DNA of 64,000 nucleotides from Tenggerimyces flavus (GTDB lineage Bacteria; Actinomycetota; Actinomycetes; Propionibacteriales; Actinopolymorphaceae): contig NZ_JAFBCM010000001.1 in the NCBI RefSeq assembly GCF_016907715.1, positions 8,161,420 through 8,225,419 of the forward strand, given 5' to 3'. The notes below the pieces were generated by a model. That model was not told the origin of the DNA and did no database searches. It worked only from the letters and a program-made list of their open reading frames with translations. The position numbers were made by a program, and so were the translations under genes. Every line of letters begins with the position of its first letter. Positions within the stretch are counted from its first letter, which is position 1. Shown piece by piece: positions 56,815-58,220 of the stretch.

Positions 56815-56840
56815 TCTACATAGGTCGATTTGCGCTCGCC

Positions 56841-56920
56841 TCACACGGCCAGTTGCCCCTCTACCTGGCGTCCACCCCACGTAAAGGGGCCAATGATCAT
56901 GTAAACATGATCATTGGCCC
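56841..56920. repeat. Two-hairpin structured repeat, copy A
   Basis: Hairpin 1 pairs GCCCCTCTAC (56855-56864) with GTAAAGGGGC (56881-56890), one C/A mismatch, around a 16-base loop ending GTCCACCCCAC. Hairpin 2 pairs GGGCCAATGATCATG (56887-56901) perfectly with 56906-56920 around TAAA. The two share bases 56887-56890 and so compete. Copy B at 57991-58070 keeps the loops but has compensatory changes in the stems. Copy A lies between tetR and the DUF559 gene. Confidence 0.85.
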
Positions 56921-56957
56921 GGGGCGCTGGGCAGGCGGCGCGGTGGAGGCGGGCCGG

Positions 56958-57893
56958 TCAGGCGGCGCGGTGGTGGCGGGCGTGGGCTCGGGCAAAGGCG
57001 GCACGCAGTCTGGCGGCGGTGTGATCGGGCGAATCCAGGTCGCTCCAGACCACGCGGACGACCTCGAGGCCAGCCTCTTCGCGGATCGCGTCCTCCCGTC
57101 GCTTCTCCTTGAAGAGGACTTCCCGCGGATCGACGTCGAAGCGGGCGCCCCGCCCGTACTTCAGTTTGCCGTCGAACTCGACCAGCGTCCGCTCGTCCTC
57201 GAACAGAAGGTCCCCACGCGCGATCACGCACCCGTCGAGCCCGTAGATCGGTGCTTGCAAGATCGGCCGCGGCAACCCGTGCCGATGGCAGAGCACGCGT
57301 AGGCGCGACTCGCCCACGGACTCGGATCCGCCGTCCGCGAACTCGATGGCCGGGAGCGCATGCCGGGCGCCAGGCCATTGGGATTGGCGGAGGTACAGCT
57401 CCAGCGCTCGGCCAAGGGCAGCACCGGACCGCAACGCGCCGTCACACAGCACGACCGCCTGCTCGAACGCGTACGACCGAGCAACGTCGACCATCGTTCG
57501 CTCGGGCGAGGTGACACGCATGCCACGGATCTCGACCACCTCGTCCGCAGCCAGGGTCGCCACGTGATGGTCGACGCCAGCCTCCCGACGAGGATGCTGT
57601 GGAGGTTCGCGCGTCACGGTGACGGTGTCGAGCGGGACTCGCCAGCTGTCCCATCCATGCAGTATCGCCGCGGAGATGTGACTCACCACGGCGTCGTCGT
57701 TCAACGTCAGCCTGACCGCCTGAATCGACACTCGATGCCGTCCCAACGCGTCCATCGCGCGCCAGGCAGGGCCGTCGACGTAGACGCCACGCCGAACATG
57801 TTCCCACTCGCCGCGTCGGATTCGCGCCTTGATCTGCTTGTCGCTGTACCCGAGCGCGAACGCCTGCTGACGGGAGAGTACCTGCGTTTCCAT
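56958..57893 (-). CDS. DUF559/AbiEi-like endonuclease-fold protein
   Basis: 311 residues. METQVLSRQQAFALGYSDKQ and IKARIRRGEWEHVRRGVYVD form the AbiEi-type winged HTH antitoxin N-terminus. The middle SPERTMVDVARSYAFEQAVV and the C-terminal DLLFEDERTLVEFDGKLKYG with later VVRVVWSDLDSP are the DUF559 very-short-patch-repair-like nuclease fold. Such proteins are common in actinobacteria, often called type IV TA AbiEi-family, but the acting partner is unknown. No AbiEii toxin is next to it. The start METQ at 57893 is chosen over an upstream GTG-like extension. It is flanked on both sides by copies of a structured repeat. Confidence 0.85.
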   Translation of the reverse strand: METQVLSRQQAFALGYSDKQIKARIRRGEWEHVRRGVYVDGPAWRAMDALGRHRVSIQAVRLTLNDDAVVSHISAAILHGWDSWRVPLDTVTVTREPPQHPRREAGVDHHVATLAADEVVEIRGMRVTSPERTMVDVARSYAFEQAVVLCDGALRSGAALGRALELYLRQSQWPGARHALPAIEFADGGSESVGESRLRVLCHRHGLPRPILQAPIYGLDGCVIARGDLLFEDERTLVEFDGKLKYGRGARFDVDPREVLFKEKRREDAIREEAGLEVVRVVWSDLDSPDHTAARLRAAFARAHARHHRAA

Positions 57894-58220
57894 GGTGAGA
57901 ACTCTCCCCGCCGGTACCGCCGTCTGACGGGCCGAACCTCGATCTGGGGACGACGGCCGACGTTCTGTCACTGTGGAGGAAACCCGGACATCACCTGGCC
58001 AGTGGCCGCCTTACGCGGCGTCTACCCCACGTAAGGCGGCAGTTGATCATGTAAACATGATCAACTGCCCACACGCCCGGGCGCGGGGCCGTTCCGGTGC
58101 GGTTCGAGCAGGCTGACCGTTCTCGTCTTGTCCCGATCCGGCCGATCTGCTCCGATAACGATGCGGCGACAGCCGGATCGGACCTGACGCGCGGGGCTCT
58201 TCGCGGACAACACTGGGGGC
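57894..58220. other. 327-base gene-free region containing repeat copy B
   Basis: Between the divergent DUF559 gene (start 57893) and the membrane-protein gene (start 58221). It holds repeat copy B at 57991-58070 and an inverted pair GATCCGGC/GCCGGATC (58135-58142 and 58172-58179). The rest shows no coding bias on either strand. Confidence 0.6.
57991..58070. repeat. Two-hairpin structured repeat, copy B
   Basis: Hairpin 1 pairs GCCGCCTTAC (58005-58014) perfectly with GTAAGGCGGC (58031-58040) around a loop ending GTCTACCCCAC. Hairpin 2 pairs GGCAGTTGATCATG (58038-58051) with CATGATCAACTGCC (58056-58069) around TAAA. Same strand orientation and size as copy A, 1,150 bases away. Stem positions that differ from A remain paired. 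Confidence 0.85.

Follow-up and report, generated by a model that had tools for sequence, protein, structure and literature searches.

A palindromic repeat family at gene ends in Tenggerimyces flavus that is the precise target of an ISL3-family transposon

The closest described counterparts of the repeat reported here are the REP and REPIN sequences of Pseudomonas and E. coli. It shares with them its number, at more than 100 short extragenic palindromes, its occurrence as singlets and inverted doublets (the arrangement described for REPINs; PMC3116915) and its use as a target by insertion sequences (IS). However, it departs from them in that the T. flavus genome holds no Y1/RAYT match, there is no conserved GTAG tag, the outer flanks of solo copies are variable and often complementary, and the core lies inside MITE-like elements with unrelated ends. 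These MITE-like elements, 153-288 bp long, are in turn comparable to Correia, ERIC, SPRITE and other prokaryotic MITEs, being high-copy, intergenic and hairpin-forming with inverted ends; they differ in that one two-hairpin core is found in elements with different ends (those of subfamilies A and C, and element Y; the left end of subfamily B differs too). A further comparison is with the REP-targeting insertion sequences, such as IS1397, IS621, ISPpu9/10 and ISRm22. As with these, every copy of the main IS considered here lies in a palindromic repeat, but the element belongs to the ISL3 family, sits at the apex of the palindrome and does so in one orientation. A 2006 survey of IS that target REP palindromes names the families IS3, IS110, IS4, IS256 and IS5, and the word ISL3 is absent from the available part of its text (PMC1525189). 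A full-text literature search with the core 20-mer of the repeat found no mention of it, and no title on the repeat (whose palindrome is hereafter P) was present among the matches listed for REPIN/RAYT, Actinopolymorpha, REP-targeting IS, or ISL3 with REP or palindromes.

We propose, at a probability of roughly three in four, that two copies of this repeat in the window (the whole stretch of DNA analysed, 64,000 nucleotides of T. flavus) belong to a dispersed, non-autonomous palindromic family of the REP/MITE kind, spread by transposition, tolerated at gene ends and used by insertion sequences as a landing site. The two copies and the gene between them are laid out as follows.

56831..56923, + strand: repeat copy A, spanning 93 aligned columns; a TetR gene and the AbiEi-like gene converge on the gap that holds it
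56858..56887, + strand: hairpin 1 of copy A; stem 56858-56864 with 56881-56887, one C-A mismatch, 16-nt loop
56888..56919, + strand: hairpin 2 of copy A, i.e. palindrome P plus outer stem; 14 bp, loop TAAA at 56902-56905
56958..57893, - strand: AbiEi-like gene between the copies, an apparent bystander; ATG start at 57893 by our codon-usage script, longest ORF starting at 57971
57981..58073, + strand: copy B of the repeat, a diverged family member, lying upstream of the AbiEi-like gene in a divergent gap
58008..58037, + strand: hairpin 1 of copy B; stem 58008-58014 with 58031-58037, 16-nt loop
58038..58069, + strand: hairpin 2 of copy B, i.e. palindrome P plus outer stem; 14 bp, loop TAAA at 58052-58055

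A preliminary description of this DNA had placed two two-hairpin copies on the same strand at these sites, and its account of their anatomy holds. Read by eye in an alignment of 31 copies (A, B and 29 others), loop 1 shares 13 of its 16 bases and the hairpin 2 core, TGATCATGTAAACATGATCA, is common to both; also by eye, the stems differ by paired changes at the three outer pairs of hairpin 2 (CAA/TTG versus AGT/ACT) and at two pairs of hairpin 1, and two G columns of copy A (58-59) can pair with either hairpin. Both copies fold stably, with z of -5.30 (A) and -7.44 (B) on the + strand and -5.55 and -8.29 on the - strand, a stability reached by none of 200 shuffles. An intrinsic terminator has a GC-rich hairpin followed by a T-run; the hairpins of A and B are strong, but neither hairpin of either copy is followed by a T-run. 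By eye, no CTAG ends were seen at A or B, and the sole Rfam match between 56000 and 59000 at E up to 1 was sR36 (E 0.25), outside both copies. Elsewhere in the genome, copy A has a near twin at position 2013389 (80 of 82 columns the same), and the closest match to copy B agrees in 69 of 82.

The family to which these copies belong is a large one. Each member consists of P, a 24-bp near-perfect palindrome that forms hairpin 2, beside a weaker, imperfect hairpin 1 (H1). Exact occurrences of the core in the 8.52-Mb genome number 150 (78 and 72 by strand; reversed control 0), and a covariance model built from the 31 aligned copies gives at least 150 matches. With a position profile, 174 copies were found over the fetched DNA, 191 with further loci, and 197 in all 710 kb taken from the 8.5-Mb genome (profile score above 35, copies at least 298 bp apart; reversed control 0). 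As copies were sought through exact cores and through the model on the best 150 candidates, the true number lies above 197, and changes in the inner arms are under-counted. Mean pairwise identity is 85% (82 columns, 174 copies), which leaves the earlier idea of a structure conserved without its sequence standing in part: the structure is real, genome-wide, and has both its hairpins in another genus, but the sequence is conserved as well.

Consensus strings of our own making divide the 174 copies into subfamilies A (103), B (54) and C (17). In 27 of the 120 group A and C copies, the repeat lies within a longer element with inverted, CTAG-containing ends, CTAGCCTCG...CGAGGCTAG, and so in part of the family the two-hairpin element is the middle of MITE-like elements. 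Like MITEs, these CTAG-ended elements of T. flavus are short, gene-free and bounded by terminal inverted repeats; the ends of element Y, in a relative considered below, were seen by eye. CTAG lies inside both ends, and a target-site duplication is inseparable from the ends themselves. Group B has its own left end, CTAGGACCTGTTGCG (with up to 3 changes), which starts 27 of 54 copies. An autonomous parent was sought at 20 of the roughly 30 places that carry the A right end without a counted core; these proved to be complete, truncated or IS-interrupted copies, with no transposase bearing the same ends. At least one doublet-like copy is present in the T. flavus genome (at 2493755). The loop is flipped to TTTA relative to hairpin 1 in 14 of the 174 copies (for instance L001, L024, L025 and L026), and several such copies have unpaired CGC or CGT arms.

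Copies of the repeat lie mostly at the 3' ends of genes, whichever way they point. By the gene calls of our own codon-usage script, 172 of 174 are in predicted intergenic gaps, 99 of them convergent, 64 codirectional and 9 divergent, with one copy in a predicted gene and one at a locus edge. The convergent to divergent ratio of 99:9 has a P of about 3e-20 under equal expectation, and the codirectional copies are oriented either way (33 on the opposite strand, 31 on the same). The gap baseline for T. flavus is drawn from loci centred on copies and did not serve as a null.

Beyond T. flavus, a covariance-model search that scored at most the 21 best candidates per genome, and which diverged relatives may thus escape, recovered diverged copies in one further genome of the family, Actinopolymorpha alba DSM 45243. 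The palindrome there reads AATGATCACGTATACGTGATCATT or nearly, and both hairpins can be made out although the letters of their stems differ. Exact matches to a degenerate P, a pattern that diverged forms would escape, number 159 in T. flavus and 165 in A. alba (the 314 matches of another scan count some places on both strands and do not serve as a copy number), and 0 in 389 other genomes sampled from the order, six other members of the family included. At 24 bp and in such numbers, P is a REP in the sense of a high-copy extragenic palindrome of 20-40 bp. The patchy distribution across the order favours a mobile element over a conserved host part, with the proviso that diverged forms escape the exact pattern. 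We are left with a REP-like repeat lacking the usual transposase in its T. flavus genome, common to two genera and unseen in the other relatives searched.

The A. alba repeat takes three main forms: an 86-bp doublet X (P, a 38-bp hairpin 1 and an inverted P), a long element Y, with CTAG-containing ends CTAGGGCGTGTCC...GGACACGCCCTAG in some copies (by eye), and solo P. In 120 stretches among the matches listed, we counted 40 X, 28 degraded X, 11 Y, 39 solo P and 5 copies of hairpin 1 with one P. Solo P lies a median of 46-49 nt past the stop codon: 19 are in convergent gaps, 17 in codirectional, 1 in a divergent gap and 2 inside genes, compared with 56 convergent, 219 codirectional and 126 divergent among A. 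alba gaps of at least 50 bp without an element (convergent versus rest, P 5e-7). Intact doublets X are 14 convergent, 19 codirectional, 3 divergent and 4 at edges; Y elements are 5, 3, 2 and 1 in the same order; the five copies with hairpin 1 and one P are 4 codirectional and 1 at an edge. Degraded doublets, at 9 convergent, 9 codirectional, 7 divergent and 3 at edges, are not depleted from divergent gaps.

How might a solo P arise? The arms of P can be told apart as outer and inner, and in 36 of 40 doublets X they run outer/inner, inner/outer (OI/IO). A deletion between the two P of a doublet would yield outer-outer arms (about half the time, by marker positions) or mixed ones, and never inner-inner. 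The 39 solo P have 16 outer-outer pairs, 21 with one of each, and 2 inner-inner; the mixed class splits 15 + 6 by strand as read, which is meaningless since P is unoriented. Solo P looks like the remnant of a doublet that has lost one P and H1 by recombination between P copies, although the 2 inner-inner cases of 39 are not given by simple deletion and speak against such an origin. The outer flanks carry a further signal: counting outwards from solo P, positions one to three are complementary in 79, 85 and 82% of cases, where mismatched controls give 39, 31 and 60%, a test in which some copies share longer repeats and are hence not independent; for doublets the figures are 57, 55 and 72% versus 39, 30 and 67%. 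Either P lands in the tips of hairpins, or gene ends retain flanks that pair. No clean empty site was found that would tell the two apart. One was sought by comparing the gap between topA and tmk with seven genomes; of the loci read, only genome G007 keeps the two genes adjacent, and its gap has no P but is too diverged to reveal the target.

Whatever the target of P itself, P is the precise DNA target of an ISL3-family transposon. At four loci (L204, L206, L216 and L027), insertion sequences interrupt the palindrome or lie directly against it, and the element that lands at the apex has an ISL3 DDE transposase (PF01610, 164 bits; NF033550, 230.7 bits with a cut-off of 180). A whole-genome search gave 10 matches, comprising nine full-length copies and one 49-nt fragment, which was left out.

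L370-L378, genome positions 8402068, 7544309, 4746524, 4610180, 4181927, 4152297, 2943046, 1098023 and 8063887: full-length copies of the ISL3-family element

All nine abut P. The eight that can be read at both ends lie exactly at the apex, with TGTTTACA on each side, and all eight share one orientation relative to the asymmetric loop; the readable junction of the ninth is likewise in P. Members of the ISL3 family produce an 8-bp target duplication, and 8-bp repeats flank all eight copies, seven of them exactly (one copy has GGTTTACA on one side). P is, in other words, an almost invariant landing site for this element. There is practical interest in site-specific transposons whose insertions at gene ends do no harm, and with the natural arm variants of P one can ask whether the transposase reads sequence or hairpin shape. 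Another element, IS5-like (PF13359, below the NCBIfam cut-off), was seen where P meets hairpin 1, flanked by ATT at either end in 2 of 2 copies, L027 (genome 1529380) and L216 (about 1249400), the sole two in the fetched DNA.

We posit, more tentatively, a chain of nested events that is rather less likely than not to hold in full: a palindromic repeat free of RAYT would insert at the tips of existing terminator hairpins, which would account for outer flanks that vary yet are often complementary, and two unrelated transposons would in turn land in this repeat and nowhere else, the ISL3-family one splitting the apex in one orientation. Palindrome would thus target palindrome at gene ends, and the extruded hairpin would probably count as much as the sequence in how the site is read. 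The broader proposal is of a mobile family tolerated at gene ends. Repeats would spread by transposition, partly as cargo of the CTAG-ended MITEs, for which the loci examined yielded no transposase; insertions that hit a gene or a promoter would be purged, and those at gene ends tolerated or even mildly useful, as a hairpin could end or protect transcripts from either side. Perhaps such copies act as bidirectional terminators or 3' stabilisers.

Could the hairpins instead be a host structure in the first place, kept by selection mainly as a terminator working in both directions or as an RNA structure at 3' ends, with the paired changes as the record of that selection? The location at gene ends, with solo P so close behind stop codons, the indifference to orientation and the complementary flanks of solo P (with the same caveat of non-independent copies) are all consistent with this, and so is the count of two-sided changes among the 31 copies, at 23 cells versus 14.0 in column shuffles (sd 2.4). 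Within subfamilies, however, the 174 copies show 132 changes on one side only (with wobble pairs counted, 72 left and 60 right) versus 25 two-sided Watson-Crick changes, and the earlier claim that paired changes betray selection on an RNA or cruciform is not supported on this count, in spite of the excess over shuffles. Indeed, the preliminary description had itself held that scatter at gene ends, with compensatory changes not in excess of single ones, would speak against it; such is the pattern found, which makes this a family of palindromic repeats dispersed among gene ends. A host structure also sits poorly with the absence of the exact P pattern from the six other family genomes searched, with the embedding of the repeat in mobile-looking CTAG-ended elements and with the missing T-run after the hairpins of the window copies. 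Folding favours the - strand in 130 of 174 copies, but a strand test by G-U versus A-C mismatches was set aside because it rests mainly on inherited columns (31/54 and 36/49), and the strand preference of wobble pairs, resting on these few columns, is not independent evidence. Selection on host structure as the primary cause is unlikely. A few alternative arm alleles within one family probably account for most paired differences between two copies (CAA/TTG 65, AAA/TTT 48, GAA/TTC 5 and AGT/ACT 2, besides the one-sided AAA/TTG 21), although two-sided changes above shuffles make some pressure on pairing, through weak selection or arm-to-arm conversion, likely. That conversion, i.e. template switching inside the palindrome, and not selection, makes the paired changes is a possibility to which we give some weight, though less than even; it concerns the covariation alone and is compatible with a mobile repeat. 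The perfect arms with recurring alleles beside a one-sided form, and the flipped TTTA loops, would fit it, but recombination between subfamilies or weak selection would appear alike within one genome. For reference, the hairpin 1 stems of 38 A. alba doublets comprise 532 cells, of which 385 are Watson-Crick, 45 G-T, 58 A-C and 44 other. A separate candidate, pairing of an upstream CTTTAC copy with GTAAAG, was rejected, as no pair changed on both sides in 31 copies. A caution follows for work of this kind: paired stem differences between two copies of a repeat need not imply selection on RNA.

Considering that copies A and B stand in direct orientation round a single gene, a movable or recombining cassette carrying that gene had also been suggested, and this we regard as very improbable. 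The gene had been called DUF559/AbiEi-like, of which the second half stands: PF13338 matches at 26.4 bits, barely above the cut-off of 25, and PADLOC assigns AbiEi at E 5.8e-20, but none of Pfam, PADLOC and NCBIfam gives a DUF559 match at E 0.001, and NCBIfam gives no match at all. Its neighbours are the TetR gene and a gene for a protein without Pfam match, so that neither adjacent gene is the AbiEii toxin expected of an AbiE toxin-antitoxin pair. Against a cassette, the two copies are identical in merely 63 of 82 columns (only 11.6% of all copy pairs are less alike), their flanks look unrelated by eye, and adjacent copies within 1300 bp of each other number 3, where 174 places set at random would give 4.5 (95% range 1-9); the observed number remains 3 when 197 copies are counted. 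Nor do copies keep company with defence-like genes of this kind: the genome has at least 10 AbiEi_4 matches, 7 of them over the cut-off (best 150 of 226 candidates scored), and the nine others lie 3.9-37.6 kb from the closest copy found, leaving 1 of 10 within 3.8 kb. The flanking of this gene looks like coincidence. A closer contender is the REPIN/RAYT system, in which P would be the REP, the P-H1-P doublet the REPIN, and a Y1 HUH transposase the mobilising enzyme. Such a system would be expected to show extragenic palindromes in high copy, as inverted doublets and also as singlets, and A. alba has nine Y1 matches. However, Y1_Tnp has 0 matches in the T. flavus genome at E 0.001; only one of the nine A. 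alba loci (L222) has a P, beyond another gene, and none has P on both sides (in flanks of up to about 1.5 kb, shorter at contig ends). Moreover, the GTAG tag is not conserved, column 54 being G in 55 of 174 copies and A in the other 119. We therefore hold this system to be improbable here, if less so than the cassette, and retain the non-autonomous REP/MITE-kind family, through which a covarying pair of hairpins has turned into a testable mobile-DNA system.

Other repeats came to light alongside P. In A. alba, six loci (L266, L280, L284, L302, L311 and L320) belong to a separate repeat family with inverted ends TGTCTCACATTGTGTACACC; two more (L248 and L299) hold a second type of doublet, with a different sequence between the palindromes; and a longer, Z-type repeat (e.g. 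L267, L309 and L340) contains a P doublet in some copies, a solo P in others and none in L340. A match in genome G065, from another family of the order (E 3.6e-8), is a different double palindrome, seen once, and is excluded from all counts. At this locus (L062, C2:3574851-3574943), two adjacent palindromes share the junction GGCC, and the hairpin 1 stem, CCCCTTTAC/GTAAAGGGG, resembles that of the P repeat.
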